Positions 10,144 through 45,032 of a stretch of DNA of 64,000 nt are shown here, one piece after another. Position numbers and translations under genes: made by a program. The notes below the pieces were generated by a model. It saw nothing but the letters and a program-made list of their open reading frames with translations, had not been told where the DNA came from and ran no database searches. Source of the DNA: Curtobacterium sp. 458 (GTDB lineage Bacteria > Actinomycetota > Actinomycetes > Actinomycetales > Microbacteriaceae); NCBI RefSeq assembly GCF_030406605.1, contig NZ_CP129104.1, positions 186,001-250,000 on the forward strand, written 5' to 3'. Position 1 is the stretch's first letter. The number at the start of each line of letters is the position of its first letter.

Positions 10144-10151
10144 AGACGGGT

Positions 10152-11483: not shown

Positions 11484-11520
11484 GAGTGTCGATCGTAGCT
11501 CGCGCGGAGGGGCGGGCGTA

Positions 11521-11589: not shown

Positions 11590-11602
11590 CGGCGGCACCA
11601 CG

Positions 11603-11676: not shown

Positions 11677-11692
11677 GGGCCGCAACAGCCTA

Positions 11693-11742
11693 CCGACGCC
11701 GAGAGGCGGCCACCCACCGGGGGTGACCGCCTCTCGCGTCGG
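11693..11742 (-). terminator. Hairpin after NDH-2 gene
   Basis: Arms 11693-11715 and 11721-11742 (GACGC-GAGAGGCGG type) pair with one bulge and one mismatch around a 5-base loop, directly downstream of the NADH dehydrogenase stop and upstream of the tRNA. Likely a transcript end without a T-tract. Confidence 0.6.
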
Positions 11743-11750
11743 ACGGGTGC

Positions 11751-13247
11751 CTACTTGGCGTCGGCCGAAGCCTCGGCCTTCACCGGCTCGGCCTCCTTGG
11801 AGACGTCCTCGGCGGGCGTCGCGTACGCGGGGCCCGCAGCGTCGGCAGGCTTGCCCTCCTCCGGGGCCTGAGCGGCGGCAGCCGGAGCGGCAGCGGCCGG
11901 GGCGGACGCCTCGACGGCCGGCTTCGGACGCGACGCGAACGCCTCGAACGCAGCCCGCGGGGTCTCGCGGTCGTCGAGCGACGCGATGTCGCGGCCGAGG
12001 AAGAAGCCACCCACCCAGTCGCCGATGACGCGCCACTTGCGCTCCCACGACGGCATCGCGAGACCGTGGTAGCCACGGTGCGCGCCCCAGGCGAGGAAGC
12101 CCTTCATCGCGAACTTGCCGGACTGGAACACGCCGATGCCGAGACCGAGGCCCGCGACGGCGCCGAGGTTCTCGTGCTTGTAGTCGGTCGTCGCCTCGCC
12201 CCGGATGACGGCGACGAGGTTCTTCGCGAGCTGCTTCGCCTGACGGACCGCGTGCTGGGCGTTGGGCACGCAGAACCCGCCGACGCCGCCGCCCGTGAGG
12301 TCCGGCACGGCCGCGACGTCACCGCAGGCCCACGCATCGGCGACCACGCCGTTGTCGTCGACCACGCGGAGGTCGGGCTGGACGCGGATGCGGCCGCGCT
12401 GCTCGAGCGGGAAGTCGGTGCCCTTGACCATCGGGTTCGCCATGACGCCGGCGGTCCAGATGATGAGGTCGGACGGGATCGTCTGGATCGACTCGTCCTT
12501 CGCCTTGAGCTGGCAGACGCCGCCCTCGGCCGACGCGAGCTGCGTCTCGAGGTGGACGGTCGCGCCGCGCTGGGCGAGGTTCTCGAGCACCCAGTGCGAG
12601 GTCTCGAGCGACACCTCGGGCATGATGCGCCCCATCGCCTCGACGAGGTGGAAGTGGGTGTCGTCGAACGACAGCTGCGGGTAGCTCTTGAGCAGGTCGG
12701 AGACGAACGAGCGGAGCTCCGCGAACACCTCGATGCCGGCGAAGCCGCCGCCGACCACGACGACGGTCAGCAGGCGGTCGCGCTCGGGACCGGCCGGCAG
12801 GTTCGCCGCCTTGTGGAAGTTGACGAGGATCTTGTCGCGGATGGCCGCGGCCTCCTCGATCGTCTTGAGGCCGATCGCCTCGTCCGCGACACCCGGGATC
12901 GGGAACGTGCGCGAGACGGCACCGGCGGTCATGACGATCTGGTCGTAGGTCTCCTCCCACGGCTCGCCCTCGGTCGGCGTGATCGTCGCCGTCTTGGTGG
13001 CGTGGTCGACCTTCGTGACCTTCGCCGTGACGACCCGGGTCTTCTTGAGGTGACGGCGGTGGGAGACGACCGCGTGACGCGGCTCGATCGACCCGGCGGC
13101 GACCTCGGGCAGGAACGGCTGGTAGGTCATGTACGGCAGCGGGTCGACCATGACGACCTCGGCTTCGCCCTGACGCAGGTGCTTCTCGAGCTTCCAGGCG
13201 GTGTAGAAACCGGCGTAACCGCCGCCGACGACGAGGATCTTGGGCAC
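11751..13247 (-). CDS. ndh: Type II NADH:quinone oxidoreductase (NDH-2)
   Basis: 498-residue FAD enzyme that passes electrons from NADH to the quinone pool without pumping protons. The FAD-binding motif VVGGGYAGF is at 6-14, the second dinucleotide fold VVVGGGFAGIE at about 163-173, and the conserved WACGDVAAVPD segment precedes a QHAVRQAK-type region. The C terminus carries an Ala/Pro/Glu-rich tail of about 60 residues beyond the catalytic core, probably disordered. GTG 13247 has AAGGAG about 11 bases upstream. It follows the DUF501 gene with a 44-base gap on the same strand. Other FAD oxidoreductases are unlikely given the overall pattern. Confidence 0.92.
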   Translation of the reverse strand: MPKILVVGGGYAGFYTAWKLEKHLRQGEAEVVMVDPLPYMTYQPFLPEVAAGSIEPRHAVVSHRRHLKKTRVVTAKVTKVDHATKTATITPTEGEPWEETYDQIVMTAGAVSRTFPIPGVADEAIGLKTIEEAAAIRDKILVNFHKAANLPAGPERDRLLTVVVVGGGFAGIEVFAELRSFVSDLLKSYPQLSFDDTHFHLVEAMGRIMPEVSLETSHWVLENLAQRGATVHLETQLASAEGGVCQLKAKDESIQTIPSDLIIWTAGVMANPMVKGTDFPLEQRGRIRVQPDLRVVDDNGVVADAWACGDVAAVPDLTGGGVGGFCVPNAQHAVRQAKQLAKNLVAVIRGEATTDYKHENLGAVAGLGLGIGVFQSGKFAMKGFLAWGAHRGYHGLAMPSWERKWRVIGDWVGGFFLGRDIASLDDRETPRAAFEAFASRPKPAVEASAPAAAAPAAAAQAPEEGKPADAAGPAYATPAEDVSKEAEPVKAEASADAK

Positions 13248-28191: not shown

Positions 28192-29547
28192 TCACCAGTC
28201 GTGGACGGTGCCGTCGGCGAGACGGTTGAACGGCAGGTACGCCTGCTCGTACGGGTACTTGCCGGCCTCGTCGACGTCGAGCGAGACACCGAGGCCCGGT
28301 TCATCGCCCGGGTGGAGGTAGCCGTCGGTGAAGGTGAACGTCTGCCGGAACACCTGGTTCGTCTTCGGGCCGTGCTGCATGTACTCCTGGATGCCGAAGT
28401 TGTGGATCGCGAGCCCGAGGTGCATCTGGGCGGCGAGGCCGACCGGGGAGATGTCGGTCGGCCCGTGGAACCCGGACTTGATCTGGTACATCGCGGCGTA
28501 GTCCATCGTCTTGCGCAGCGGGGAGATGCCGCCCATGTGCGTGACGGCCCCGCGGACGTAGTCGATGAGCTGGTCGCGGATGATGTCCTTGAAGTCCCAG
28601 ATCGTGTTGAACACCTCACCGATCGCGAGCGGCGTCGTGGTGTGCTGCCGGACGAGCTTGAGGGCCTCCTGGTTCTCGGCGGGGGTGCAGTCCTCGAGCC
28701 AGAACAGGTCGTACGGCTCGAGGCTCTTGCCGAGCTTCGCGGCCTGCAGCGGGGTCATCCGGTGGTGCCCGTCGTGCAGCAGCGGGAGCTCGGGGCCGAA
28801 CTCGTTCCGCACGGCTTCGAACACGGTGGGTACGTGGCGGAGGTAGGCGCGGGTGTCCCAGTCCTCCATCGCCGGGAAGGCCCCGCGCTGCGCCGGCTCG
28901 AAGTCGTACCGGACACCCGCGTTGCCCTCGGTGGTCGTGTTCGAGGCGATGCCGTAGATGCTCTCCAGCCCGGGGACGCCGGTCTGGACGCGGATCGAGC
29001 GGTAGCCCTCTTCCTGGTGCTCGCGGATGGAGTCGAACAGCTCCGGGAGCTCCTTGCCGGATGCGTGCCCGTAGGCCATGAGCCCGGTGCGGGAGGCACC
29101 GCCGAGCAGCTGGTAGAGGGGCATCCCGGCGACCTTGCCCTTGATGTCCCAGAGGGCCATGTCGACGGCGGCGATCGCGGCCATCGTGACCGGTCCCCGG
29201 CGCCAGTACGACGAGCGGTAGAGGAACTGCCAGGCGTCCTCGATCCGGCTGGCGTCGCGACCGACGAGCAGCGGGACGACGTGCTCGGACAGGTACGCCG
29301 CGACGGCGAGCTCGCGGCCGTTGAGGGTCGCGTCGCCCAGCCCGGTGACGCCGTCCGCGGTGGTGATCTTCAGCGTGACGAAGTTGCGGTTCGGGCTCGT
29401 GACGATGACCTCGGCGCGGTCGATGAGCTGCCCGCGGTCGGTCGACGCCCACGTGTCCGGACGCCCGGCGGTCGGGTCCGTCGCGGCGCCGCCGTCGGTC
29501 GCACCGGGGACGGGTGCGGCGGGGTTCGTGGTGCCGGTGTCGGTCAT
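28192..29547 (-). CDS. manD: D-mannonate dehydratase, enolase superfamily (ManD/RspA)
   Basis: 451 residues. Converts D-mannonate to 2-keto-3-deoxy-D-gluconate. Metal ligands D259, E285 and E311 fall at the exact 26-residue spacing of characterised ManD enzymes, with the catalytic H261 in HDGHHR; the HGPTDISPVGLAAQMH segment near the C terminus is also typical. The first 36 residues are a low-complexity extension. Its start overlaps the uxuB stop by 4 bases (ATGA). The neighbours UxuB and UxaC make the mannonate role much more likely than the other low-activity functions known in this group. It takes the place of the unrelated UxuA. Confidence 0.92.
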   Translation of the reverse strand: MTDTGTTNPAAPVPGATDGGAATDPTAGRPDTWASTDRGQLIDRAEVIVTSPNRNFVTLKITTADGVTGLGDATLNGRELAVAAYLSEHVVPLLVGRDASRIEDAWQFLYRSSYWRRGPVTMAAIAAVDMALWDIKGKVAGMPLYQLLGGASRTGLMAYGHASGKELPELFDSIREHQEEGYRSIRVQTGVPGLESIYGIASNTTTEGNAGVRYDFEPAQRGAFPAMEDWDTRAYLRHVPTVFEAVRNEFGPELPLLHDGHHRMTPLQAAKLGKSLEPYDLFWLEDCTPAENQEALKLVRQHTTTPLAIGEVFNTIWDFKDIIRDQLIDYVRGAVTHMGGISPLRKTMDYAAMYQIKSGFHGPTDISPVGLAAQMHLGLAIHNFGIQEYMQHGPKTNQVFRQTFTFTDGYLHPGDEPGLGVSLDVDEAGKYPYEQAYLPFNRLADGTVHDW

Positions 29548-30827
29548 GCGTGGACTCCTTCGTCGACGGTGCCGCGCGCGGGTGCCGCGGCGGCGCGGAT
29601 GCGTTCAGCGGCCGCGGTGACGGCGGCCACCACGGGGGTGGTGTCGAGGTCGGGCGCGACGACCCCCAGGACGTCGTGCACGTCCGAGTCTGGCCCGGGG
29701 GCTCCGGCGTCGTCCACGGCCTCGGGCTGCTCGGTCAGGTGCAACCACCACGCCGCGAGGGCCGTGGCCGCGCCGGGACCGATGCCGGCGTCGGGATCGC
29801 GGGCGAGTCGGTGCCGCAGCACGTCGCCCACCCGGACCGGGAGCTTCTGCGAGCCCCCGGACGCGATCTGCCGGAGGGTGTGCCGGATGCGCGGGTTCGC
29901 GAACCGCTCGACGAGGGCGGCGCGGGCGGCGTCGACCTCGGTGTCCGGCAGCGGGAGCTCGGCGGCGGCCTCGTCCCAGAGCTGCTCGACGGCCGAACGG
30001 CACCGGGGGTCGTCCATCGCCTGCGCCACGGTCTCGTGCCCGAGCAGGAGACCGAGGTACGCGAGCAGGGAGTGGGACCCGTTGAGCAGCCAGAGCTTCC
30101 GCTGCTCGTACGGGGTGACGTCGTCGACGAGCCGCACACCCGCGGTCTCCCACGCGGGCCGGTCGATGCCGTCGAAGCGGTCCTCGAGCACCCACTCGGC
30201 GAAGGGCTCGGTGACCACGGGCACCCGGTCGCCCTCGAGCGCTCCCGGGAACCCGGCGAGGCCGTCCACGTCGGCCGCCGTCGTGGCCGGCGTGATCCGG
30301 TCGACCATCGACGACGGGAACGCGACGTTCGCCTCGATCCACGCCAGCAGCTCGGCGTCGGACACGGTCGACGTGACGGCGTCCCGCAGCACCTCGCCGT
30401 TGTGCGTCAGGTTGTCGAGCGACACGAGGGCGATCCGCCCGGCGCCGGCGGCACGCCGGGCGTCGAGCCCCGCGACGAGCCGCGCCGGGACGTCGGAGCC
30501 GGACCGGTAGCCCTGTTCGGTGACCGTCAGCGTGACGATGGTGGTCTCCGGGGACGCGACCACGTGCCTCCAGGCCGTGTCGTCAGTGCCGGGGTGGGCC
30601 GCCACGACCGTGTCGACCACCTCGGCGGTGTCGCCGTCCGCGCCGCGGGTCACGAGGGTGTAACGACAGTCCTGTGCGTCGAGCGCCTCGGCGACCTCGG
30701 GTGAGCGCCCGGTGAAGGCGGTGATCCCCCACCGCTCGCCGTCCGTGCGACCCGTGTACCAGGCGAGGTGGGCTCGCGCGAACGCACCGATGCCGAGGTG
30801 GACGATGCCGGCGCGGCGGTCGGTCAT
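29544..30827 (-). CDS. uxuB: Fructuronate reductase / mannonate oxidoreductase (mannitol dehydrogenase family)
   Basis: 427-residue NAD-dependent polyol dehydrogenase that reduces D-fructuronate to D-mannonate. The Rossmann start is IVHLGIGAFARAH; the catalytic triad pattern K244...N249..H252 (RKLWLLNGSHS) matches mannitol dehydrogenase family members. The link with UxaC and ManD favours fructuronate over mannitol, tagaturonate or arabinitol. It overlaps both neighbours by 4 bases, so translation is probably coupled. Confidence 0.88.
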   Translation of the reverse strand: MTDRRAGIVHLGIGAFARAHLAWYTGRTDGERWGITAFTGRSPEVAEALDAQDCRYTLVTRGADGDTAEVVDTVVAAHPGTDDTAWRHVVASPETTIVTLTVTEQGYRSGSDVPARLVAGLDARRAAGAGRIALVSLDNLTHNGEVLRDAVTSTVSDAELLAWIEANVAFPSSMVDRITPATTAADVDGLAGFPGALEGDRVPVVTEPFAEWVLEDRFDGIDRPAWETAGVRLVDDVTPYEQRKLWLLNGSHSLLAYLGLLLGHETVAQAMDDPRCRSAVEQLWDEAAAELPLPDTEVDAARAALVERFANPRIRHTLRQIASGGSQKLPVRVGDVLRHRLARDPDAGIGPGAATALAAWWLHLTEQPEAVDDAGAPGPDSDVHDVLGVVAPDLDTTPVVAAVTAAAERIRAAAAPARGTVDEGVHA

Positions 30828-31711
30828 GCGGTCACCGGGACGAGGGACCGGAGGTACGCGAGGTTGTCGGCCGTGCGCTCCGTGAGCGGGAGGTCGGTGG
30901 AGAAGTCCTCGATCGTGACCCAGCCGTCGTACCCGTGCTGCCGCAGGGCGTCCAGGTACTCGGCGACCGAGGCCTGACCGTCACGCAGGGGTGCCCACTC
31001 GTTCTGCCAGACCCGGCTGCCGTCGGCCCGGGTGTCGCCGGTGTCGACCCAGCGCGCGTTCTTCACGTGGGCGTGTGCCAGGTACGGGCCGAGGAGCTCG
31101 AACGCGGCGAGGTGGTCCTCCTGCCCCTCGATGACGAGGTTGCCGAGGTCGTGGATGACGCCGACGTGCTCCGGGTCGAGGCCGTCGACGAGCCGGAGGG
31201 CCGCCGACGCCGACGGGGTGATCGTCATGTGGTGCAGCTCGACGAGCGCCTTGACGCCGAGCTCGGCGGCGCGGCCGGTCGCCCACTCGAGGTCGGCCCG
31301 GGTGCGGTCGAACATCGCGGTGTAGGTCTCGCCGGTGCGCTCCTTCTCGGCGCGGTACATCGGCATCGTCACGCGGACCTGCCGGGCACCGAGTTCGGCG
31401 GTGACGCGGAGCATCGTCTCGACGCCCTCGTGGTCGGACACCTGCTGGTAGCCGCCGATGCCGGAGTACTCGAGCCCGGCTGCGTCGGTGGTGCTGGCGA
31501 TCTCGCCGACCCGGTCGGCGACGCCGGTGAACTGCCACGTCGACTTGTTGCCGGCCCAGAACGACCGGCCGGGGGGCACCGCTGCGCCGTCGGCGGGGCG
31601 GTCGTCGACGACACGCCACTCGATGCCGTCCCACCCCTGTCCGGCGAGGGTCTGCGCCGCCTCGGTGGGCGTCCAGTCCGGGGTGGAGGCGGTGAACACG
31701 GAGAACTTCAC
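30824..31711 (-). CDS. Sugar phosphate isomerase/epimerase-like TIM-barrel protein
   Basis: 295-residue AP-endonuclease-2 superfamily TIM barrel: KFSVFTASTPDWTPTEAAQTL at the start, LVELHHMTI, VGVIHDLGNLV, AHVKNARW and WVTIEDFST mark successive strands, with acidic and His residues suited to a divalent metal. Relatives are isomerases, epimerases, inosose dehydratases, and the catalytic subunits of C-glycoside deglycosidases and 3-keto-glycoside lyases. Overlaps the Gfo/Idh gene stop and the uxuB start by 4 bases. Exact reaction unknown; it probably acts on the imported sugar before the uronate steps. Confidence 0.75.
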   Translation of the reverse strand: MKFSVFTASTPDWTPTEAAQTLAGQGWDGIEWRVVDDRPADGAAVPPGRSFWAGNKSTWQFTGVADRVGEIASTTDAAGLEYSGIGGYQQVSDHEGVETMLRVTAELGARQVRVTMPMYRAEKERTGETYTAMFDRTRADLEWATGRAAELGVKALVELHHMTITPSASAALRLVDGLDPEHVGVIHDLGNLVIEGQEDHLAAFELLGPYLAHAHVKNARWVDTGDTRADGSRVWQNEWAPLRDGQASVAEYLDALRQHGYDGWVTIEDFSTDLPLTERTADNLAYLRSLVPVTA

Positions 31712-32901
31712 GAGACTGCTCCTTCGGTGTGGGCTCCGGCGCCGACGACCGGCACCACGTCGTCGTACGTGCCGTCGATGACGTCGTCGATCCGGACCGG
31801 CTTGCCGAGCGTCGCGCTGACGTAGAGCCCGCGGACGGTCGCGAGGGACACGAGGGCGGCGTCGACGGTCACGCCGGGCTCGCGGCCCTCGCGGATCGCG
31901 GCCGCGATGTCGGTGTACTGCCGTGCGTGGCCGGCGGCGAAGTGCTCGGGCTCGGTCGGGCCGCCGACGACGTGCTCAGGCGGGACGACGTCGGACTTCT
32001 GGTCGACGGCGTCCGCGACGGCGGTGGCGTTCGCGGTGGTGGACGCGGACTCCAGCGTCGCGGAGTCGGGCGCGACGTGGAAGTAGGCGAGCCGGTCGTC
32101 GTCGACGATCGCCGAACCGTGCGTGCCGTAGACCGCGTACCGGGCGGAGAGACCCGGGTAGGCGGCGGTCGTGCAGTGGATGACCCCGAGGGCACCGTTC
32201 CGGAACCGGACGGTGGCGACCGCGGTGTCCTCGACCTCGATCCGGTCGTGGGCGAGGAGCCCGGTCTGCGCCGAGATCTCCTCCGGACGACCGAGCGCCC
32301 AGACGAGCAGGTCGACGGTGTGCACGCCCTGGTTCATCACCGCGCCGCCGCCGTCGAGGTCCCACGTGCCCCGCCAGTCGCCCGAGTCGTAGTACCCCTG
32401 CGAGCGGTACCAGGCGACGCTCGCGACGCCCGAGGTGACCGTGCCGAACGAGCCGTCGTGCGCGGCCCCGGCGACGGCGACCGAGGCCGGGTCGAATCGG
32501 TGCTGGCTGATCACACTCGTCACCAACCCACGCGCCCGGGCGTCCGCGGCGAGCGCGGCGATCTGCCGGGCCCGCGGCATCGTGGTGTCGAGCGGCTTCT
32601 CGATGACGACGTGCTTGCCGGCGGCGAGTGCCGCCTCGGCGAGCTGGACGTGCATGCCGGACGGCGAGCAGATCGCGACGACGTCGATGTCGGCCTGTTC
32701 GATCGCGTCCTCGATGGTGGACGTCGTGATCGGTCGCGTGACGCCCATCGACTCGAGCTCGTCCGCGGCGCTGGTGGCCGCGGCGGGGATCGCGTCGACG
32801 AGGGCGACGACCTCGAGGTCCGGGTGCTGCACGGCGACGCGGGCGTGGTGGCGTCCGATGACGCCGGCGCCGACGACTGCCAACTTCAGTGGGGTGGTCA
32901 T
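31708..32901 (-). CDS. Gfo/Idh/MocA family oxidoreductase
   Basis: 397 residues. N-terminal Rossmann domain with GAGVIG at 11-16 and the family catalytic EKPLD at 101-105 (Lys of EKP); the C-terminal alpha/beta substrate domain starts near 140. Such enzymes oxidise or reduce sugars, inositols or glycosides, often at C3. It lies between two TIM-barrel genes with 4-base overlaps on both sides. In this setting a glycoside 3-dehydrogenase or an inositol/uronate dehydrogenase are the main options; sequence alone does not decide. Confidence 0.8.
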   Translation of the reverse strand: MTTPLKLAVVGAGVIGRHHARVAVQHPDLEVVALVDAIPAAATSAADELESMGVTRPITTSTIEDAIEQADIDVVAICSPSGMHVQLAEAALAAGKHVVIEKPLDTTMPRARQIAALAADARARGLVTSVISQHRFDPASVAVAGAAHDGSFGTVTSGVASVAWYRSQGYYDSGDWRGTWDLDGGGAVMNQGVHTVDLLVWALGRPEEISAQTGLLAHDRIEVEDTAVATVRFRNGALGVIHCTTAAYPGLSARYAVYGTHGSAIVDDDRLAYFHVAPDSATLESASTTANATAVADAVDQKSDVVPPEHVVGGPTEPEHFAAGHARQYTDIAAAIREGREPGVTVDAALVSLATVRGLYVSATLGKPVRIDDVIDGTYDDVVPVVGAGAHTEGAVS

Positions 32902-33734
32902 CGCAGGGTGACTCCGATCTGGTCGGTGAGGGAACGGAAGGCGCGTCCGGCGCGACCGAAGGCCGCGGGACCGGAGAACCCGCCGAGGGAGGTGAAGTCG
33001 CTGAGGTGCGGTTCGAGGGACGCGTACCCGGAGTACCCGGCGTCGCGGAGCGCGGTCAGGGTCTCCAGGAGTTCGCCGTCACCCTCGCCCGCCGGCACGA
33101 CGGACGAGTCGGCCGCGAGTGCGTCCTTGACCTGCAGGTAGTCGACGTACGGGGCGAGCTGCGCCCACCCGTCGGTGAAGGGGCGGACGCCGCACTGGAC
33201 GTAGTTCGCGTTGTCCCAGGCGAGCCGCAGCGACGACGAGCCGACGCTCTCGACGATGTCGAGCACGCGAGCGGGGACGTCGCCGTAGATGTCCTTCTCG
33301 TTCTCGTGGAGCAGCGTCACCCCTTCCCGCGAAGCCAGGTCGGCGAGCGCGCGCATCCGGGTGAGGACGTCGTCGCGGACGTCTTCCGGAGAGCGGCCCT
33401 CGAAGTAGAACGAGAAGATCCGGATGTTCGTGGTGCCGAGGGCGTGCGCCGCGGCGATCGCACGGCCGAGCCGGCCGACCTCGTGCTCGACGGGTTCGTC
33501 GACGGACACCTTGCCGATCGGCGAGGCGATGGCGGACACGGTCTGCCCGCGCTCCTCGAAGAGGCGGTGGAGTCCGGCGAGCTGGTCGTCGTCGAGGTCG
33601 ACGACGTTCACCCCCCAGGCGCTCCGCACCTCGATGGCGCTGGCGCCGAGCGCCTGCAGCACGGCGACCTGGATCGCCGGGTCGGCGTCGATCTCGTCGC
33701 CGAACCCGGAGAGTTCCCAACTGGGCTGGGTCAT
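32898..33734 (-). CDS. Sugar phosphate isomerase/epimerase-like TIM-barrel protein (second)
   Basis: 278 residues, same superfamily as the 30824 product but clearly diverged (FGDEIDADPAIQVAVLQALGA; FSFYFEGRSPEDVRDDVLTRM; LLHENEKDIYGD; LAWDNANYVQCG). The Glu of LLHENE and Asp/Asn of WDNANY are probable metal ligands. ATG 33734 has AAGGGA 8 bases upstream. It opens the catabolic half of the operon, 143 bases after the permease gene, and overlaps the Gfo/Idh gene by 4 bases. Two such barrels in one operon suggest sequential or complex-forming roles. Confidence 0.77.
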   Translation of the reverse strand: MTQPSWELSGFGDEIDADPAIQVAVLQALGASAIEVRSAWGVNVVDLDDDQLAGLHRLFEERGQTVSAIASPIGKVSVDEPVEHEVGRLGRAIAAAHALGTTNIRIFSFYFEGRSPEDVRDDVLTRMRALADLASREGVTLLHENEKDIYGDVPARVLDIVESVGSSSLRLAWDNANYVQCGVRPFTDGWAQLAPYVDYLQVKDALAADSSVVPAGEGDGELLETLTALRDAGYSGYASLEPHLSDFTSLGGFSGPAAFGRAGRAFRSLTDQIGVTLR

Positions 33735-33877: not shown

Positions 33878-34825
33878 CTACTTCACCGAGCCGGCCGTGA
33901 GGCCGCCGACCAGGTAGCGCTGGAAGATGAGGTAGAGCGCGACGACCGGCACGGCACAGACGATCGACGCGGCCATCATCTGGCCGTAGATCGGGACGGC
34001 GCCGCCCTCCTGGGTGGTGCCGAGCACCTGGAGCACCACCGCGACTGTGCGCGTGTTCGGGGTCGTCATGATCGTGGAGAACAGGACGTCGTTCCAGCCG
34101 AGCAGGAACGCGAAGATCGCGGACACGACGATCCCGGGCCACGACAGGGGCAGGACCACGCTGCGGAGGATGCGTCCGCTCGAGGCGCCGTCGATGCGGG
34201 CGGCCTCCTCGAGCTCCTTCGGCAGGCCGCGGAGGTACGTCACCATGACCCAGGTCGAGAACGGCAGGGCGAAGGTGAGGTAGGTGACGAAGAGGCCCCA
34301 GCGTGTGCCGATGATCTGCACGCCGGTGGCGCTCGCGATGTTCGAGAACACGACGAACACGGGCAGGAGCAGGAGCGTGCCCGGGATCGACTGCAGGGCG
34401 AGGAGCCCGCGGAGGATCGTGAGGCGGCCGAGGAACCGGAAACGGACGAGGACGTACGCGGTCGACACGGCGAGCGCCGCACTCGCGACGGCGACCGCCC
34501 CGGCCGTGAGGATCGAGTTCACGAGCCCCTGGCCGAGCGCGACCGTCGACCAGATGTTCACGTAGTTCGCCAGCGTGAACTCGGAGGGGAAGTACTCGCC
34601 GCGGGCGACCGCGACGTCGGAGTTGACGGAGCCGAACAGGATGTACAGCACCGGGCCGGCGATGAACGCGACGATCACGGCGATGACGACGATGAGCAGC
34701 CAGCGCGGCAGGAGCCGGGTGACGTCGGTGTCGTAGGGCCGCTTCGCCGGTCGGCCGTTCCGGGCCGTGATGCTCTCGGTCAGCGTCGCGGTCGGGCGGG
34801 TGCGGAAGGTGCTCTGGGTGCTCAT
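33878..34825 (-). CDS. Carbohydrate ABC transporter permease (MalG/CUT1 type)
   Basis: 315 residues, six membrane helices after a cytoplasmic N terminus of about 40 residues. The ABC-importer EAA loop reads KELEEAARIDGASSGRILRSVVLPL, which contacts the ATPase. Pairs with the upstream MalF-type permease (4-base overlap). No ATPase gene is present in the operon, so a shared MsiK/UgpC-type ATPase encoded elsewhere is inferred. Substrate is inferred from the operon: a hexuronate or hexuronate-containing oligosaccharide. Confidence 0.92.
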   Translation of the reverse strand: MSTQSTFRTRPTATLTESITARNGRPAKRPYDTDVTRLLPRWLLIVVIAVIVAFIAGPVLYILFGSVNSDVAVARGEYFPSEFTLANYVNIWSTVALGQGLVNSILTAGAVAVASAALAVSTAYVLVRFRFLGRLTILRGLLALQSIPGTLLLLPVFVVFSNIASATGVQIIGTRWGLFVTYLTFALPFSTWVMVTYLRGLPKELEEAARIDGASSGRILRSVVLPLSWPGIVVSAIFAFLLGWNDVLFSTIMTTPNTRTVAVVLQVLGTTQEGGAVPIYGQMMAASIVCAVPVVALYLIFQRYLVGGLTAGSVK

Positions 34826-35874
34826 GCGCGGGCTCCGTCGATGTCGGCGGCTGCGGCCGGGGTGGCTGCCGCGAGCGTGGTCGGGTCCGCTGCCGCGAGC
34901 GTTGCCCGGTCGGCCCGTCGCTGCTTGCGGGTGGGGCCCGCGTCGTCACCGGTGTCGAGCTTGACGGCCCGGAGGTAGACGAACAGCGGGATGGCGACGA
35001 TCACGAGCGAGCAGATCGCCATGGCCGCGGACAGGCCGAAGCGGAACGACTGGAAGCTCGCGATGTAGGTCAGGACGGGCATCACCTCGACGCTCGACGG
35101 CAGCGGGATGCCGAACAGGACGAACGGGAGCGTGAAGTTGTTGATGTTGTGGAGGATCGAGATGATCACCGCCAGCGACAGCGGGCCGCGCAGGTACGGG
35201 AAGATGATGTACCGGAGCTTCGCCCACCAGGTCACGCCGTCGAGCGCCGCTGCCTCGTGGACCTCGTTGTCGACGGCCTGCAGTCCGGCGAGGGACAGCA
35301 GGTACACGAACGGCCAGCTCGTCCACACCATGACGCCGGCGAGCGCCCAGTACGACGCCGAGCCGTTCAGCCAGAGCACGTCCGTGTGCAGCACCGAGTT
35401 CACGACGCCCTGCGGCTGGAGCATGGTCCGGAAGAACGTGCCGACGACGAACGCGGGGAGCACGTACGGGATGAGGTAGACCGAGCGGACGAGCCCGCGG
35501 CCGGGGAACCGGTTCTGCGTCGAGATCGCGGCGGCGACCCCGATCGGCACCGTCACGGCGGTGACGAGCACCGACAGCGACACCGAGATCCAGATCGAGT
35601 GCAGCAGTGGGGAGGCGGTGAAGGCCTCGGCGAAGTTCGCGAGCCCGATGAAGGGAGCGCTGAACCACTGCCGCAGCGTGTACTGGTCGAGGTCGAGCAT
35701 CGCGATGTACACGCCGACGAGGAGCGGCACCACGATGACGGCGAGCATGAGGACACCGCCGGGGAGGAGCATCCAGAGGGGACGCTCGCGTTTGTACAGC
35801 GGCGTCTTGCCGTGTGGCCGGATCGCTCGGCGTGGGGCGCGCTCGGTCTCCGGCCGGGTCTGCGTGGCGGTCAT
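34822..35874 (-). CDS. Carbohydrate ABC transporter permease (MalF/CUT1 type)
   Basis: 350 residues: basic N terminus, six membrane helices (first about 33-57), EAA loop NEVHEAAALDGVTWWAKLRYIIFPYL near 205-230, and an Ala/Arg-rich C-terminal extension of about 35 residues. The start shares one base with the binding-protein stop (TGATG). Forms the heteromeric channel with the MalG-type permease. Confidence 0.92.
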   Translation of the reverse strand: MTATQTRPETERAPRRAIRPHGKTPLYKRERPLWMLLPGGVLMLAVIVVPLLVGVYIAMLDLDQYTLRQWFSAPFIGLANFAEAFTASPLLHSIWISVSLSVLVTAVTVPIGVAAAISTQNRFPGRGLVRSVYLIPYVLPAFVVGTFFRTMLQPQGVVNSVLHTDVLWLNGSASYWALAGVMVWTSWPFVYLLSLAGLQAVDNEVHEAAALDGVTWWAKLRYIIFPYLRGPLSLAVIISILHNINNFTLPFVLFGIPLPSSVEVMPVLTYIASFQSFRFGLSAAMAICSLVIVAIPLFVYLRAVKLDTGDDAGPTRKQRRADRATLAAADPTTLAAATPAAAADIDGARA

Positions 35875-37232
35875 CACAGCCCTCCGTTCTTCTGGCGGTT
35901 CAGGGTGGACTGGGCGTCCCGTTGCGCGGCCTCGAGGCGCGACCGGAGTTGCTCGTCGCTGACCTCGCCGCTCTTGAGCTGCGGGATGGACTGGACGACG
36001 ACGTCGACGAGAGCGAGCTGGATGTCCGACCAGGCGCCGGTGAAGGCGGTGGGCTTCGAGAGCTTGCCGGCCTGGATGATCGGCGCGAGCTGCGGGTTGT
36101 CGGCGGCGAGCTGCGCGGCCGCGTCGGCGTTCGTGGGCAGGTTGCCGAACAGCCGGTAGTACTCGAGCTGGGCCTTCGGCGTGCTGAGCTGCTTGATGAA
36201 GTCGAACGACAGGTCCTGCTTCTTGCCGTAGTCGGCGACGACCCAGTTGTCGCCGGACAGGATGCTCGCGGCCTCGATCCCGTCGCTCGGGCGTGACGTC
36301 GCACCGGGCGGGACGGTCGGCAGGAGCGCGAACTCGTACTTGCCGTCGACCTTCGTGTCCTTGAACGAGTTGATCGCGGTGGTGGTGGTCATCGGGAAGA
36401 ACGCGGCCTTGCCGTCGGTGAACTGCGCGAGGGCCTGTGCGTTGTTCCACCCGATGGCGGCCTTGTCGACGACGCCGTCCTTCGTGACCCAGTCGAAGTA
36501 GGTGCGGTAGGCGTTCTCGACGGCCTTCGCGTCGATCTCGGCCTTGCCGTCCTTCGACACGATCGTGTTGCCGGCGTTCTGGGCCATGCCCCAGATGAAC
36601 TTCCACGGGTCGAAGCCGTCGGCGTAGGCGATCGCCATGCCGTGCACGTCGCCGCTGGTCGTCTTCTCCGCGTCAGCGGTCAACTGGTCCCACGTGGTCG
36701 GCATCTCGGTGATCCCGGCCTTCGCGAGCAGGTCCTTGTTGACGGCCATCACGAACGGCCGGCTGGCGAGCGGGATGCCGATCTGCTTCGACGAGCTCGG
36801 GCCGGAGATGCCGAACGACGCCGGGTCGAACTGGTCCTTGCCGCCGACGGCGTCCCACTGCTCCTTCCCCATCTCGACGAACGCGCCCGTGGCGTAGGCG
36901 GTGGGGGTGAACGTGGTGCCGATCGCGTAGACGTCGGGGCCCTGCCCGGAGATGACGCTCGTCTGGATGGCGGTGAGTTCCTCCTGCGCCGAGGAGTACG
37001 TCTCCCACTGCACCTTCGCGCCCGTGGTGCGTTGGAACTCGGCGGCGACGTCCTGCTGCCACTGCTTGCGTTCCTTGGGGTAGGTGGTGTCCGCGCCCAT
37101 CATGACGCGGAGCGTGTTCGGGTCGTCGCCGCTGCCGTTGACGATCGCGCAGCCCTGCAGCGACAGTGCTGCGAGCGCGACGACGGCGGCGGCTCCGGCC
37201 ACGGAGCGGGCCTTCAGTCTTCGTGTCCTCAT
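35874..37232 (-). CDS. ABC transporter sugar-binding lipoprotein
   Basis: 452-residue CUT1 extracellular binding protein. A lipoprotein signal ends in LSLQGC with C28 as the lipidated cysteine; the mature part has the two-lobed pattern (DPNTLRVMMGAD..., FVMAVNKDLLAKAGI, SFDFIKQLSTPKAQLEYY). ATG 37232 has a strong GAGGAGG upstream. First gene of the leftward operon; its promoter region carries the palindromic operator at 37317-37362. The pull of a uronate-containing ligand is inferred from the operon enzymes. Confidence 0.92.
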   Translation of the reverse strand: MRTRRLKARSVAGAAAVVALAALSLQGCAIVNGSGDDPNTLRVMMGADTTYPKERKQWQQDVAAEFQRTTGAKVQWETYSSAQEELTAIQTSVISGQGPDVYAIGTTFTPTAYATGAFVEMGKEQWDAVGGKDQFDPASFGISGPSSSKQIGIPLASRPFVMAVNKDLLAKAGITEMPTTWDQLTADAEKTTSGDVHGMAIAYADGFDPWKFIWGMAQNAGNTIVSKDGKAEIDAKAVENAYRTYFDWVTKDGVVDKAAIGWNNAQALAQFTDGKAAFFPMTTTTAINSFKDTKVDGKYEFALLPTVPPGATSRPSDGIEAASILSGDNWVVADYGKKQDLSFDFIKQLSTPKAQLEYYRLFGNLPTNADAAAQLAADNPQLAPIIQAGKLSKPTAFTGAWSDIQLALVDVVVQSIPQLKSGEVSDEQLRSRLEAAQRDAQSTLNRQKNGGL

Positions 37233-37316
37233 GCGGGGGTTTCCTCCTCGAGACCTCCGAGGGCTGCGCTGGACGACCGACCGTCGGCGGCGCTGCCCGG
37301 GTCCGTCCACTGTCCC

Positions 37317-37371
37317 GCTCGTGGCAACATCCGGCAACCGGTTGCCACTTGTTGCCACGAGCGCCTAGCTT
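37317..37371. promoter_or_regulatory. Nested palindromic operator and lacI promoter, hexuronate divergon
   Basis: An inner perfect 14-bp palindrome GGCAACCGGTTGCC (37333-37346) is flanked by outer arms GCTCGTGGCAAC (37317-37328) and GTTGCCACGAGC (37351-37362). The central C-G step and length fit LacI-family operators. On the plus strand TTGCCA (37342-37347) and TAGCTT (37366-37371), 18 bases apart, form a promoter for lacI that overlaps the operator. A leftward TTGCCG with a weak GACAGT box 17 bases on could drive the transport operon. One repressor could therefore control both directions and itself. Confidence 0.75.
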
Positions 37372-37378: not shown

Positions 37379-38470
37379 GTGAGCAGGACAGACAGCGGCA
37401 CCGGCGTCGTCGCCGACGATGCCGAGGCTGGTGTCGGCCGTCGGGTGACGATCCGGGACATCGCCGACGCGACCGGCGTGGCACCGTCGACGGTGTCCCG
37501 CGCCCTCTCACTCCCGGACCGCGTGAACCACGTCACGCAGCAGCGGATCCAGCAGGCCGCCCGGGAGCTCGGCTACGTCGCGAACTCGCAGGCGCGGGCG
37601 TTGACGTCCGGTCGGACCCGCGCGGTCGCCGTCCTCGTCTCGGACATCACGAACCCGTTCTACTTCGACGTCATCCGTGGGACGCAGCACCAGCTCTCCG
37701 CCGCGGGGTGGACGCAGCTGCTCGTCGACACCGAGGAGTCCGCCGACGCCGAGCTCGCCGCCCTCAGCGCGATCGCCACGAAGGCGGACGGCGCGGTGCT
37801 CACGGCCTCTCGTCTGTCCGACGCGCAGATCGCCCGGTTCGCCGAACGCACCCCGCTCGTCGTTGTGAACCGCAGGCCCGCAGGCGTGCCCTCCGTCCTC
37901 ATCGACACCCCGGGCGGCGTCGAGCAGGCCGTGCAGCACCTCGTGAGCCTCGGGCACCGTGACGTCCTCTACGTCGCCGGTCCGGACAGCTCCTGGTCGA
38001 ACGAACGCCGGTGGCGGGCGCTCGTCCGGGTCGCGAAGCGGCTCGGCGTGCGGGTCGCGCGGATCGGACCGCACGCCCCGTTCGTCGACTCGGGCGCCGC
38101 GGCAGCCGACGCCGCGGTCAACGCGGGGGCGACGGCGTGCATCGCGTTCAACGACCTCATCGCGATCGGGATGCTGACGCGACTCCGCGAGCGTGGTGTC
38201 CGTGTGCCGGAGGACATGTCGGTCGTGGGGTGCGACGACATCTTCGGCGCCGACTTCTGCAACCCACCGCTCACCACGATGACGTCGCCGATCGAGCGCG
38301 CGGGACGGGTGGCGATCCGCATGCTCCTCGGCCGGCTCGGCGCCGCGCCCTCGGCGTCCGGCGACGACCTGCCCGACGGGCACGCCGCCGGGGCCGTCGC
38401 CCTGCCCACCCACCTCACCGTCCGCGAGTCCACCGGCCCGGCGCCGACCTCGCCCCACCGTCCGTCCTGA
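37379..38470 (+). CDS. LacI family transcriptional regulator of the hexuronate locus
   Basis: 363 residues. The LacI helix-turn-helix is at 23-44 (VTIRDIADATGVAPSTVSRAL), the hinge helix follows near 70-82, and a periplasmic-binding-like effector domain runs to the end (VLVSDITNPFYFDVIRG; CIAFNDLIAIGML; VVGCDDIFGADFCNPPLTT). GTG 37379 is 7 bases after the TAGCTT -10 box, so a leaderless mRNA is likely. It is divergent from the ABC/catabolic operon and upstream of uxaC. The effector may be a uronate or a downstream intermediate. Confidence 0.9.
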   Translation: MSRTDSGTGVVADDAEAGVGRRVTIRDIADATGVAPSTVSRALSLPDRVNHVTQQRIQQAARELGYVANSQARALTSGRTRAVAVLVSDITNPFYFDVIRGTQHQLSAAGWTQLLVDTEESADAELAALSAIATKADGAVLTASRLSDAQIARFAERTPLVVVNRRPAGVPSVLIDTPGGVEQAVQHLVSLGHRDVLYVAGPDSSWSNERRWRALVRVAKRLGVRVARIGPHAPFVDSGAAAADAAVNAGATACIAFNDLIAIGMLTRLRERGVRVPEDMSVVGCDDIFGADFCNPPLTTMTSPIERAGRVAIRMLLGRLGAAPSASGDDLPDGHAAGAVALPTHLTVRESTGPAPTSPHRPS

Positions 38471-38527: not shown

Positions 38528-39958
38528 ATGACCCGGAACAGCACGACCACGACACCCCTGGCACCGCACCCCGACCGGCTCCTGCCAGCCGACCCGGTGG
38601 CCCGGGACATCGCCCGGTCGGTGTACGAAGCGGTGGCCGATGCGCCGATCATCTCCCCGCACGGCCACGTCGACGCGGCACTCATCGCCGACGACGAACC
38701 GTTCCCGGACCCGGCGGCGCTCCTCATCACCCCCGACCACTACGTCCTCCGGCTCCTGCACGCCAACAGGGTCCCGCTCGACCAGCTCGGACGGGGCTCC
38801 GGGACGCAGGTCGACGGACGCGAGGTCTGGCGGCACCTCGCCGCGCACTGGGACGACTTCCTCGGCACCCCCGTCCGGTACTGGTTCGAGACCGAGCTCC
38901 ACGACGTCTTCGGCCTGCGCTCGGCGCCGTCCGCCGAGAACGCCGACGAGCAGTACGACCACCTCGCCGCGCTCCTGCGCTCCCCCGAGTTCCGGCCCCG
39001 TGCCCTCTTCGACGCCTTCGGCATCGAGGTCCTCGCCACCACCGACGGACCGGACGCCGACCTCGCCGCGCACGCGCGGCTCGCCGCGGACCCCACGTTC
39101 CGCGGTCGGGTGCTGCCCACCTTCCGCGCGGACGCCGTGTTCGACCCGTCGCGATCGGACTGGAGGCACGTGGTGACGTCGGTCGGTGAGGCCGCGGGCA
39201 TCGACACCGGCACCCACGACGGCCTGCTCGCTGCGCTGCGCGCCCGGCGGCAGTACTTCATCGAGCACGGCGCGACGGCCACCGACACCGGGGTGCTCGA
39301 CGCCGGGTCCGCACCCCTGCCCGCCGCCGAGCGTGAGCGCATCCACGCCGCGGCGATGCGCGGGCCGGACGCCGTCACCGCCGCGGAGGCCACCGCCTAC
39401 CGACACGACATGCTCTACCGCTGGGCCGAGATGAGCGTCGACGACGGACTCGTCATGCAGTTGCACCCCGGCGTGCTGCGCAACCACCACCAGCCGACGC
39501 TCGACCGCTTCGGGCCGGACACCGGTCACGACCTGCCCGCGGTCGGGTCCTTCACCGAGCCGCTCCGGCCACTCCTCAACGACTTCGGGACGGCGCCGGA
39601 TTTCCACCTCGTGCTCTTCACCGTCGACGAGACGGTGTTCTCCCGCGAGATCGGCCCGCTCGCCGGGTTCTACCCCGCGGTGTACGCCGGGGCGCCCTGG
39701 TGGTTCATCGACACCCCGGCGGCGATCGGCCGGTACCGGGCGGCGGTCACCGACTCGGCGTCGTTCACGAAGACCTCCGGTTTCATCGACGACACCCGCG
39801 CGTACTGCTCGATCCCGGCGCGGCACGACATGGCGCGGCGGGCGGACGCGGCGTACCTGGCCTCGCTCGTCGTCACGCACCAGCTGTCCGAGGAGGATGC
39901 GGTCCGCACGGCGCACCGGATCGTCTCGGACATCCCGCGGGCGACGTTCAAGCTGTGA
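38528..39958 (+). CDS. uxaC: Glucuronate isomerase (uronate isomerase)
   Basis: 476-residue amidohydrolase-superfamily enzyme that isomerises D-glucuronate to D-fructuronate (and galacturonate to tagaturonate). The HxH metal motif is in ISPHGHVDAAL near residue 44, HANRVPLDQLG follows, and the C-terminal half carries MQLHPGVLRNHHQ and GSFTEPLRPLLNDFG, all typical. AAGGAG is 7 bases before ATG 38528. Cotranscribed with lacI and convergent with the GNAT gene, whose coding region it overlaps by 11 bases. It supplies the substrate of UxuB. Confidence 0.95.
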   Translation: MTRNSTTTTPLAPHPDRLLPADPVARDIARSVYEAVADAPIISPHGHVDAALIADDEPFPDPAALLITPDHYVLRLLHANRVPLDQLGRGSGTQVDGREVWRHLAAHWDDFLGTPVRYWFETELHDVFGLRSAPSAENADEQYDHLAALLRSPEFRPRALFDAFGIEVLATTDGPDADLAAHARLAADPTFRGRVLPTFRADAVFDPSRSDWRHVVTSVGEAAGIDTGTHDGLLAALRARRQYFIEHGATATDTGVLDAGSAPLPAAERERIHAAAMRGPDAVTAAEATAYRHDMLYRWAEMSVDDGLVMQLHPGVLRNHHQPTLDRFGPDTGHDLPAVGSFTEPLRPLLNDFGTAPDFHLVLFTVDETVFSREIGPLAGFYPAVYAGAPWWFIDTPAAIGRYRAAVTDSASFTKTSGFIDDTRAYCSIPARHDMARRADAAYLASLVVTHQLSEEDAVRTAHRIVSDIPRATFKL

Positions 39959-42679: not shown

Positions 42680-42934
42680 ATGATCACCACCGCACTCACC
42701 ACCGCAGCCGCCGCGACCGGGCCGTACTGGCACGGCGGCGGGTTCCCGTTCTTCGTCTTCCCGGCGTTCTTCTCCCTCGCGTTCCTCGTCGTGTTCCTCG
42801 TGTTCGGGGTCTTCCGACGCGGGTCGTGGCGGGCCGTGTCGGACGCGCGGGCAGTCCTCGCCGACCGGTTCGCGCGGGGCGACATCAGCGCCGAGGAGTA
42901 CCGCGCGCGGCTGTCCGAGCTCAGCCGGAAGTGA
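42680..42934 (+). CDS. Small membrane protein with SHOCT domain
   Basis: 84 residues: one membrane helix (about 20-44, FFVFPAFFSLAFLVVFLVFGVF), then a C-terminal SHOCT motif (LADRFARGDISAEEYRARLSEL, about 60-81). SHOCT domains are oligomerisation modules often found at the ends of membrane proteins. ATG 42680 has AGGAG 5 bases upstream. Divergent from the histidine kinase, a frequent context for targets of such systems. It is convergent with gntK and overlaps it by 14 bases. Confidence 0.8.
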   Translation: MITTALTTAAAATGPYWHGGGFPFFVFPAFFSLAFLVVFLVFGVFRRGSWRAVSDARAVLADRFARGDISAEEYRARLSELSRK

Positions 42935-43460
42935 CCGCGAGGCCCGCGAGGATCGTCCGCACCGTGTCGTCGACGGACCCGTCGATCGGCACGGCGAGGG
43001 CGGCTTCGTCGGGCTGCGGCCGTTCCAGCGTCGCGAACTGGGAGTCGAGCAGCGAGGTCGGCATGTACTCGTGGTGCCGGTGCGACTGCCGCTCGGCGAT
43101 GAGCTCGCGCGAGCCGTCGAGGAACGCGATCACCAGTCCGGGAGCGGAGACGCGGAGACGGTCGCGGTAGGCGCGCTTGAGTGCCGAGTTCGCCATCACC
43201 GCGCGGTGCCCGGACGCCTCGATCGCCGCGATGCGGGCCGCGCACGCGTCGAGCCAGGGCCAGCGGTCCTCGTCGGTGAGCGGGGTGCCGGCGCGCATCT
43301 TCTCCTTGTTCGCCGCCGGGTGCAGGTCGTCGGCGTCGACGAACTCGGCGGGCTCCCCGCGGTCCGCGAGCGCCGCCGCCACCGCGGCTCCGATGGTGGA
43401 CTTGCCCGAACCGGACACCCCCATGACGAGGACGGGCGGGAGGACTGCGCTGTCGGTCAT
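42921..43460 (-). CDS. gntK: Gluconokinase
   Basis: 179 residues, the size of the GntK/IdnK family. Phosphorylates gluconate to 6-phosphogluconate. Walker A GVSGSGKS at 14-21, then EFVDADDLHPAANKEKMRAGTPLTDEDRWPWL, the family hallmark, and HHEYMPTSLLDSQFATLE. ATG 43460 is 6 bases after a TACTGT -10-like box (43467-43472). Divergent from gnd across 114 bases, so the product of this enzyme is the substrate of its neighbour. No gluconate permease or GntR gene is nearby. Confidence 0.95.
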   Translation of the reverse strand: MTDSAVLPPVLVMGVSGSGKSTIGAAVAAALADRGEPAEFVDADDLHPAANKEKMRAGTPLTDEDRWPWLDACAARIAAIEASGHRAVMANSALKRAYRDRLRVSAPGLVIAFLDGSRELIAERQSHRHHEYMPTSLLDSQFATLERPQPDEAALAVPIDGSVDDTVRTILAGLAVTSG

Positions 43461-43574: not shown

Positions 43575-45032
43575 GTGGCAGACAACGACGGACAGGCGAA
43601 CATCGGCGTGATCGGGCTCGCCGTGATGGGTTCGAACCTCGCACGGAACCTCGCATCGCGCGAGGGCAACACGGTGGCGGTGTACAACCGCACGTACGCC
43701 CGCACCGAGGAGCTGCTGCAGGAGCACGGCGACGCCGGGTTCATCGCGTCGGAGGACATCGACGGGTTCGTCGCGTCGCTGTCGAAGCCGCGCACCGCGA
43801 TCATCATGGTGCAGGCCGGCAAGGGCACCGACGCCGTCATCGAGCAGCTCGCGGAGCGGTTCGAGGAGGGCGACATCATCGTAGACGGCGGCAACGCGAA
43901 CTTCCACGACACGATCCGGCGCGAGCACGACCTCCGCGAGAAGGGCCTCAACTTCGTCGGCACCGGCATCTCCGGTGGTGAAGAGGGCGCCCTCAAGGGT
44001 CCGTCGATCATGCCCGGCGGCTCCAAGGAGGCCTGGGAGACGCTCGGGCCCATCCTCAAGTCGATCGCCGCCGTCGCCGAGGGTGAGCCGTGTGTGACCC
44101 ACATCGGCACCGACGGCGCCGGGCACTTCGTGAAGATGGTGCACAACGGCATCGAGTACGCCGACATGCAGCTCATCGCCGAGTCGTACGACCTGCTCCG
44201 CCGCGCCGGCGGGCTCTCCGTCGAGCAGCTCGTGGAGGTCTTCGACGAGTGGAACGGGGGCGACCTCGAGTCGTACCTCATCGAGATCACGGGCGAGGTC
44301 CTCAAGCAGCGGGACGCCGACACGGGCAAGCCGCTCGTGGACGTCATCCGTGACGAGGCCGGGTCGAAGGGGACCGGTGTCTGGACCGTGCAGAACGCGG
44401 TCGGGCTCGGCATCCCCGTGTCCGGCATCGGTGAGGCGGTGTTCGCCCGGGCGGTGTCGTCGAAGCCGACGCAGCGTGCCGCCGTGCAGCAGTCCGTGAA
44501 GAGCCGGCCGTCGATCGCGGAGGTGCCGGACACCTTCGCCGACGACGTCCGCGCCGCGCTCTACGCCTCGAAGGTCGTCGCCTACGCGCAGGGGTTCGAC
44601 CTCATCATCGCCGGGGCGAAGGAGTACGACTGGGACATCGACCTCGGCAACGTCGCAAAGATCTGGCGCGGTGGCTGCATCATCCGGGCACAGTTCCTCA
44701 ACCGCATCGTCGAGGCGTACGACAAGAACCCCTCGCTGGAGAGCCTGCTGGTCGACCCGTACTTCGCGGACGCCGTCGCCGAGGGTGAAGCGGCCTGGCG
44801 TCGCATCGTCGGGATCGCGGCAGCGTCGGGGATCCCGGCGCCCGGGTTCTCGTCGGCGCTGGCGTACTTCGACTCGCTCGCGTCCGACCGGCTGCCGGCC
44901 TCGCTCATCCAGGGGCAGCGGGACTTCTTCGGCGCGCACACCTACCAGCGGGTCGACAAGGACGGCACGTTCCACACGCTGTGGTCCGACGACGACCGCC
45001 GCGAGGTCGAACAGGAGCCGTCGACGCACTGA
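43575..45032 (+). CDS. gnd: 6-phosphogluconate dehydrogenase (decarboxylating)
   Basis: 485-residue long-form (NADP-type, E. coli-like) enzyme of the pentose phosphate pathway, yielding ribulose 5-phosphate. NADP fold IGLAVMGSNLARN at 13-25, the catalytic-lysine segment GAGHFVKMVHNGIEY near 185-200, and the C-terminal TYQRVDKDGTFH tail are all present. GTG 43575 has AAGGAG 6 bases upstream. It is followed by a strong hairpin. Divergent from gntK. Confidence 0.97.
   Translation: MADNDGQANIGVIGLAVMGSNLARNLASREGNTVAVYNRTYARTEELLQEHGDAGFIASEDIDGFVASLSKPRTAIIMVQAGKGTDAVIEQLAERFEEGDIIVDGGNANFHDTIRREHDLREKGLNFVGTGISGGEEGALKGPSIMPGGSKEAWETLGPILKSIAAVAEGEPCVTHIGTDGAGHFVKMVHNGIEYADMQLIAESYDLLRRAGGLSVEQLVEVFDEWNGGDLESYLIEITGEVLKQRDADTGKPLVDVIRDEAGSKGTGVWTVQNAVGLGIPVSGIGEAVFARAVSSKPTQRAAVQQSVKSRPSIAEVPDTFADDVRAALYASKVVAYAQGFDLIIAGAKEYDWDIDLGNVAKIWRGGCIIRAQFLNRIVEAYDKNPSLESLLVDPYFADAVAEGEAAWRRIVGIAAASGIPAPGFSSALAYFDSLASDRLPASLIQGQRDFFGAHTYQRVDKDGTFHTLWSDDDRREVEQEPSTH

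Follow-up and report, generated by a model that had tools for sequence, protein, structure and literature searches.

The DNA analysed here (the window, 64,000 nucleotides) spans positions 186001-250000 of the Curtobacterium sp. 458 genome, a single contig of 3.68 Mb, and carries a hexuronate operon in which a Gfo/Idh/MocA oxidoreductase (Gfo) is encoded between two TIM-barrel proteins of family PF01261 (barrel1 and barrel2). On the minus strand the genes are transcribed in the order solute-binding lipoprotein (SBP), permease 1 and permease 2 of an ATP-binding cassette (ABC) importer, barrel2, Gfo, barrel1, UxuB-like and ManD; the genes for a LacI-family regulator and the uronate isomerase UxaC are divergent from these on the plus strand (Table 1). 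The importer genes overlap by 4 bases each and stop 143 bases ahead of barrel2, and a scan of this gap found no promoter- or terminator-like site. A 4-base overlap is also found at every junction among the five catabolic genes, and coordinates and Pfam together confirm the compact arrangement, with Gfo between the barrels, described in an earlier note on this DNA. The same note had stated that the operon encodes no glycoside hydrolase (GH), and this was borne out: Pfam found no GH domain, GH4 (PF02056) included, in any of the ten proteins that these transcripts encode (0/10). Its naming of ManD was upheld by a score over the curated cut-off, whereas the name UxuB is likely rather than certain, since fructuronate reductase is still the best NCBIfam match of this protein but, at 224 bits, falls well short of the cut-off of 603. 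The operon proteins are 89-99% identical to their counterparts in Curtobacterium luteum NS184 (locus L002). In databases both barrels are labelled 'sugar phosphate isomerase/epimerase'. The best PDB match of the SBP is 5ysb Lin1841 (79 bits), the others being mostly sugar- or oligosaccharide-binding proteins.

Table 1. Features of the hexuronate locus; positions are counted from the first base of the window.
Feature	Position	Strand	Evidence
ManD, D-mannonate dehydratase	28192-29547	-	Pfam MR_MLE; NCBIfam NF043051, 685 bits (above cut-off 550)
UxuB-like, Mannitol_dh family	29544-30827	-	PF01232/PF08125; NF011611, 224 bits (below cut-off 603)
barrel1, proposed 3-keto-glucuronoside eliminase	30824-31711	-	PF01261, 94.8 bits
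Gfo/Idh/MocA oxidoreductase, proposed glucuronoside 3-dehydrogenase / 3-keto-glucuronate reductase	31708-32901	-	GFO_IDH_MocA and C-terminal domains
barrel2, proposed hydratase of 3-keto-glycal	32898-33734	-	PF01261, 92.0 bits
ABC permease 2	33878-34825	-	BPD_transp_1
ABC permease 1	34822-35877	-	BPD_transp_1 (PF00528), 55.7 bits
Solute-binding lipoprotein (SBP)	35874-37232	-	SBP_bac_1
Palindrome GGCAACCGGTTGCC, probable LacI-family operator	37333-37346	.	Shuffles, inverted repeat, relatives' loci
LacI-family regulator	37445-38470	+	PF00356, 47.8 bits
UxaC, uronate isomerase	38528-39958	+	NCBIfam NF002794, 517 bits (above cut-off 387)

A search with barrel1 over 84,980 species, one genome each, returned 405 relatives, and the best 80 loci were fetched (20 kb). 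These skew to close relatives, 40 being Curtobacterium (counting L016). In 79 of the 80 loci Gfo shares the strand of barrel1 and lies within 150 bases of it, the distance in the last (L079) being 219 bases. Barrel2 was present in 77/80 loci, missing in L055, L075 and L079, and lay within 150 bases of Gfo in 76/80; in L078 it is 10.5 kb away. Hexuronate genes were similarly common (UxuB in 73 loci, ManD in 72, UxaC in 70 and at least one of them in 73), all within 8 kb of barrel1. Four loci (L005, L008, L047, L051) are each without one hexuronate gene, three of which reach a contig end, and in most Arthrobacter-type loci UxaC has been relocated into the operon, after barrel1. In a draw of 297 genomes spread evenly over the order, with a barrel1 limit of E <=1e-90, barrel1 was found in 8 genomes (7 genera) and UxaC in 129. 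UxaC lay within 8 kb of barrel1 in seven of these eight carriers, the eighth being a 610-contig draft with the two genes on different contigs. A family-level draw gave 29 carriers, and in every one (29/29) barrel2 has a Gfo-like gene no more than 1.5 kb away. That the trio of barrel2, Gfo and barrel1 is kept together in other genera argues that the arrangement is not due to chance, and the survey of gene neighbourhoods bears out the co-occurrence expected earlier, with the trio linked to UxaC, UxuB and ManD across genera.

In seven of the 80 loci (L039, L055, L058, L075, L078, L079, L080) the 20 kb that were fetched contain no hexuronate gene. LacI, importer, Gfo and barrel1 persist in four of these (L055, L075, L078 and L079) and therefore look like the core of the system. 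In L039 (Actinoplanes) and L058 (a second copy in C. flaccumfaciens Sample7_18) the trio stands with a NagB-like gene, a different importer and GH20; PF01182 and PF00728 were confirmed in L039 and PF00728 in L058. The barrel2 DNA of L058 is 99-100% identical to that of L021 (8073-8822), the hexuronate cassette of the same strain, compared with 55-82% for Gfo and barrel1. Either gene conversion in the recent past or a fault in the assembly would explain this, and frameshifts are seen in L058 as well. In L047 (6502-7782), the locus of a Propionibacteriaceae metagenome-assembled genome without UxaC, a PF01120 alpha-L-fucosidase-family gene lies directly upstream of barrel2. A full trio also occurs in a genome from another actinobacterial family (L084, genome G222, 9362-12244), with Gfo (41% identical) first, then barrel2 (56%) and barrel1 (45%), and UxaC about 20 kb off on the same contig.

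The palindrome GGCAACCGGTTGCC sits between the divergent transcripts, inside an inverted repeat (37316-37363), and has one match in the window and none in 100 shuffles. A LacI relative was found in 78/80 of the loci, and the pattern GGCAANCGNTTGCC in 58/80, against 1/80 for the reversed control pattern. The 58 loci comprise 37/38 of L001-L038 and 21/42 of the remaining loci, these 21 being Arthrobacter-type loci together with L055, L075 (Dactylosporangium) and L079 (Plantactinospora); the pattern was absent from the Leifsonia loci among the 80. Judged from these patterns, GGCAACCGGTTGCC is probably a LacI-family operator, through which a single regulator would control both transcripts, and hence all genes, together. 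A scan of five genomes for hidden hexuronate genes under the same operator gave extra sites in two (two in G605, one in G606) and no site in the genome of L078. The extra sites were taken as chance, because no operon homologue lies nearby and the reversed control was about equal (6 vs 7 sites).

The closest PDB relatives of Gfo in a profile search are 3q2i (219.5 bits) and 3q2k (212.7 bits), both of which we take to be WlbA, followed by 8tdi (115.8 bits), whose entry title is P2B11 Glucuronide-3-dehydrogenase. Further matches included 6nor (112 bits), glucose-fructose oxidoreductase (101), inositol dehydrogenases (about 94), DgpA (84) and 6a3f (81), the last presumably levoglucosan dehydrogenase. 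An identity of Gfo as levoglucosan dehydrogenase was rejected at 76.8 bits against a cut-off of 650. The block W-x-R-x3-YY-x4-WR-x2-W is common to Gfo, 3q2i, 3q2k and 8tdi and is missing from 6nor; the residues shared in Gfo are W164, R166, YY170, WR176, NQ190 and H194, and the block was found in 17/17 rows of Gfo from the cassettes (the trios). The surface-polysaccharide biosynthesis context of WlbA-type enzymes was not found here, the neighbours being instead an importer and UxaC, UxuB and ManD.

In barrel1 the residues E158-x-H160, D188, H215 and E268 are invariant in 26/26 rows, and E158-x-H160 is aligned with the Glu-x-His of AsbF and the His-x-His of IolE. That barrel1 has a His at the second position beyond its metal Glu argues against a ketose 3-epimerase such as D-tagatose 3-epimerase (DTE) or UlaE, if the DTE residues are as we presume. 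In the eliminase AtOGE, as described in PMC10628242, His132 binds the metal and His134 is catalytic, and CGEs have a Glu at the first position and His143 at the second. At the sequence level barrel1 fits the eliminase pattern of a metal ligand with a catalytic His two residues on, a motif that is not exclusive to eliminases. In barrel2 the residues E144-x-E146, D174, Q201 and E241 are invariant in 20/20 rows. Profile searches (E <=10) with barrel1 gave YcjR (E 0.028), AtHYD (0.34) and the AP_endonuc_2 domain proteins 7xrf and 7bvr (about 0.6), all too weak to count, and with barrel2 gave no match to any of these four. Predicted models (mean predicted local distance difference test, pLDDT, 93.8 for barrel1 and 91.1 for barrel2) were compared using Foldseek and VIA-align, and Art22, UlaE, SCO6571, IolE, D-tagatose/allulose 3-epimerases, AtHYD and, for barrel1, YcjR differed by no more than a few Z units. 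Neither AtOGE nor the C-glycoside deglycosidases appeared among the 50 fold matches listed, which excludes nothing.

Reading the observed gene order, families, conservation, residues and regulator site together, we lean towards the trio being a module for glucuronoside oxidation and elimination in which one oxidoreductase serves both redox steps. The importer would bring in a glucuronoside that is then cleaved without a hydrolase. Gfo would oxidise C3 of the glucuronosyl residue with NAD+, and barrel1, a metal TIM barrel that has Glu as ligand and, two residues on, His as base, would remove the acidified C2 proton, so that the aglycone is expelled from C1 and a 2-hydroxy-3-keto-glycal acid is left. 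Barrel2 may then hydrate this glycal to 3-keto-glucuronate, which is the most tentative of the steps, and the same Gfo would reduce C3 to give D-glucuronate, using the NADH from the first step and so keeping the cycle redox-neutral. Judging by their families, UxaC, UxuB and ManD would convert the glucuronate to 2-keto-3-deoxygluconate. The proposal of the earlier note that a glucuronoside is oxidised, eliminated and reduced ahead of UxaC is favoured by the linkage of the trio to hexuronate genes, the PDB relatives of Gfo, the Glu-x-His of barrel1, the Gfo-like gene near barrel2 in all carriers of the family-level draw and the operon of Paenarthrobacter DKR-5 (L074). In this last locus two genes stand between UxuB and ManD, one for a beta-glucuronidase (891 bits against a cut-off of 544) and one for an MFS_2 transporter; an MFS_2 gene also follows UxuB in L053. 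The L074 enzyme points to a regulon for glucuronides, with the cassette apparently serving those that the hydrolase does not take. It shows as well that some of the cleavage can fall to a hydrolase.

A number of observations weigh against this proposal, which is only partly sustained. Barrel2 has Glu in place of the catalytic His and no metal His, Gln standing at the position of the His in the H-x-K of AsbF. The operon holds one Gfo only and no separate gene for a 3-keto-sugar reductase, while the characterised pathways described in PMC7676230 and PMC10628242 use two oxidoreductases. The comparison of predicted folds ties lyase-pathway enzymes with epimerases and isomerases and does not separate them. 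Epimerases and inosose enzymes as the best structural relatives were the outcome that the earlier note had itself named as speaking against its idea, and this came true in part: the top fold matches are isomerases and epimerases, the lyase-pathway enzymes are tied with them, and IolE is among the profile matches of barrel1. The cassettes beside GH20 in L039 and L058, without hexuronate genes, indicate that the trio is not exclusive to uronates, and the W/R/YY/WR block is also kept in the Gfo of L039 (with GH20 and NagB-like), so the block is no proof of carboxylate recognition. Finally, in a class-level draw of 296 genomes with a looser barrel1 limit (E <=1e-40), UxaC lay within 8 kb of barrel1 in only 3/9 carriers, although it was somewhere in the genome in 8/9 and about 20 kb from barrel1 in one. 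Five weaker carriers among these nine (G222, G234, G239, G248, G265) have barrel1 proteins 37-46% identical to that of the window and fall below the 1e-90 limit or outside the order drawn; UxaC is on other contigs in G239 and G248, about 110 kb away plus on another contig in G265, and not present in G234.

Glucuronate could also be released by other enzymes of the genome. GH67 and GH115 had no match in any of 40 Curtobacterium genomes (0/40), that of the window included; GH88 had none in this genome and weak matches in 4/40 of the genus. The lack of matches to these three families in the genome of the window favours the proposal. GH2 was found in 40/40, and in this genome one GH2 is in a LacZ-sized frame and one is a protein of 627 amino acids with equal, weak galactosidase and glucuronidase scores. 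The genome also has four GH4 genes, one of which is over an alpha-galactosidase cut-off; the GH4 family includes some alpha-glucuronidases. Given the GH4 genes and the 627-residue GH2, hydrolytic release of glucuronate elsewhere in the genome is possible, with GH30 and GH79 lying outside the searches, and this too counts against the proposal. At another site this genome carries a homologue of the importer found with the GH20-type cassette (SBP 63-69%, permeases 78-91% identity); GH4 and a kinase with weak similarity to NagK come after it, and the cassette is absent. A GH4 with the same four-step chemistry at a homologous importer is suggestive, but is a single case. Direct replacement of the cassette by GH4 became less likely on closer inspection: the importer is homologous, but GH4 comes after the importer genes and the cassette before them.

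The same genes can be read in other ways. Gfo might oxidise C3 of a different hexuronate or hexuronoside (e.g. the C4 or C2 epimer), with a barrel epimerising the carbon next to the ketone and Gfo re-reducing the product, so that UxaC would receive a sugar of glucuronate configuration. In E. coli, YcjR is an epimerase of this kind for glucosides. We regard epimerisation as unlikely, because two different barrels are kept and the two-barrel operons of the literature, as far as described in PMC7676230 and PMC10628242, carry out elimination and hydration, because the beta-glucuronidase in the related operon L074 points to glucuronosides, and because the SBP resembles oligosaccharide-binding proteins. 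It is quite unlikely that the trio is a general 3-keto-sugar module whose own substrate residue is not glucuronate, standing beside hexuronate genes only because the two handle parts of a single oligosaccharide of plant or microbial origin. This would account for the cassettes with NagB-like and GH20 genes in L039 and L058, for Gfo-barrel1 pairs without hexuronate genes in the 20 kb of L055, L075, L078, L079 and L080, and for relatives of barrel2 that are paired with other Gfo proteins, in one scanned case with GH3; it sits poorly with the hexuronate genes in 73/80 loci and with UxaC beside barrel1 in 7/8 order-level carriers.

Very unlikely, in our view, is a side pathway for free uronates or inositol-type compounds, with Gfo as an inositol or uronate dehydrogenase and IolE/IolI-like barrels feeding the mannonate route. 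IolG is the best NCBIfam match of Gfo and IolE the only one of barrel1, as well as second among the barrel1 PDB profile matches; however, the scores (130.8 and 25.4 bits) are far below the curated cut-offs of 355 and 290, and inositol dehydrogenases are not among the best PDB relatives of Gfo. Moreover, UxaC, UxuB and ManD are already enough for free glucuronate, and the genome has a separate inositol-like cluster (L094, genome positions 154001-162000) of two PF01261 barrels and two Gfo-like proteins, of which the Gfo scanned fits an inositol dehydrogenase model better (284 bits, though still below the cut-off of 540).

The oxidation/elimination chemistry of the glucuronoside proposal already has precedents. 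The levoglucosan operon of Bacillus smithii, lgdA-B1-B2-C, runs through C3 oxidation, beta-elimination, hydration and reduction and, like the operon in the window, has Gfo-type genes, two 'sugar phosphate isomerase' barrels, LacI and a sugar ABC importer; it differs in having two oxidoreductases rather than one, a neutral anhydrosugar as substrate and, in the cluster as described, no hexuronate genes (PMC7676230). That an operon with two such barrels and Gfo-type genes performs these steps on levoglucosan speaks for the glucuronoside proposal. The Agrobacterium glycoside operon is laid out as GlycDH-AtOGE-AtHYD-Gfo, and in the account of PMC10628242 a flavoenzyme oxidises, the substrates are glucosides and Gfo is a separate reductase. 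GH4 glycosidases carry out the four steps proposed here, oxidation, elimination, hydration and reduction, according to PMC7676230 and PMC10628242, but do so in one polypeptide of an unrelated family. WlbA-type enzymes oxidise C3' of UDP-GlcNAc-uronate, a glucuronic-acid derivative, as outlined in PMC10622841. These are biosynthetic and use a nucleotide sugar, whereas Gfo, whose best PDB matches we presume to be WlbA, belongs to a catabolic operon with an importer. P2B11 (8tdi) is named for glucuronides and shares the W/R/YY/WR block, but as the third-best match it is distant from Gfo (116 bits vs 219 for the best); it reportedly belongs to an oxidation/elimination pathway from gut metagenomes that appeared in Nature in 2024. 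The E. coli 3-keto-glucoside 4-epimerase YcjR (6wn6) is built on the same kind of TIM barrel and takes a 3-keto sugar as its substrate; it epimerises and, in contrast to the role proposed for the barrels here, does not cleave, and its cluster is, we believe, without hexuronate genes. Literature searches, largely without subscription papers, found no publication on this operon.

If the glucuronoside proposal is true, the label 'sugar phosphate isomerase/epimerase' conceals a pathway dedicated to non-hydrolytic glucuronide breakdown in a broad group of Actinobacteria. Plant xylan, saponins, flavonoids and drug conjugates commonly contain glucuronosides, and Curtobacterium and its relatives live in plant and soil habitats. 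More tentatively, and with some doubt on our part, the trio might amount to a redox-neutral glucuronidase split over three proteins, a WlbA-like oxidoreductase for both C3 steps and two metal barrels, that forms a portable actinobacterial module placed before hexuronate or hexosamine catabolism. Since the aglycone bond would be broken by elimination, such a system could cleave alpha-, beta-, C- and S-glucuronides that glucuronidases leave intact.

A number of further genes were seen around the operon. No 2-keto-3-deoxygluconate kinase was seen in the operon itself. A small AAA_33 kinase that looks gluconokinase-like from its N-terminus (42921-43460) and a 6-phosphogluconate dehydrogenase (43575-45032; PF00393, 409 bits) lie 3-5 kb from UxaC. 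A similar kinase gene comes immediately after ManD in several loci of Leifsonia and Arthrobacter, L041 having an SGL-gluconokinase fusion there. The genome has 15 PF01261 matches, 14 of them over the cut-off. A second Gfo/PF01261 island lies in the window at 54113-63426 and comprises a zinc-type alcohol dehydrogenase, a ROK regulator, a PF01261 barrel (56609-57655), Gfo (57687-58766), ThuA (58784-59482), a further Gfo (59483-60640), a divergent PF01261 protein (60773-61963) and a gene named xylulokinase-like from its N-terminus.

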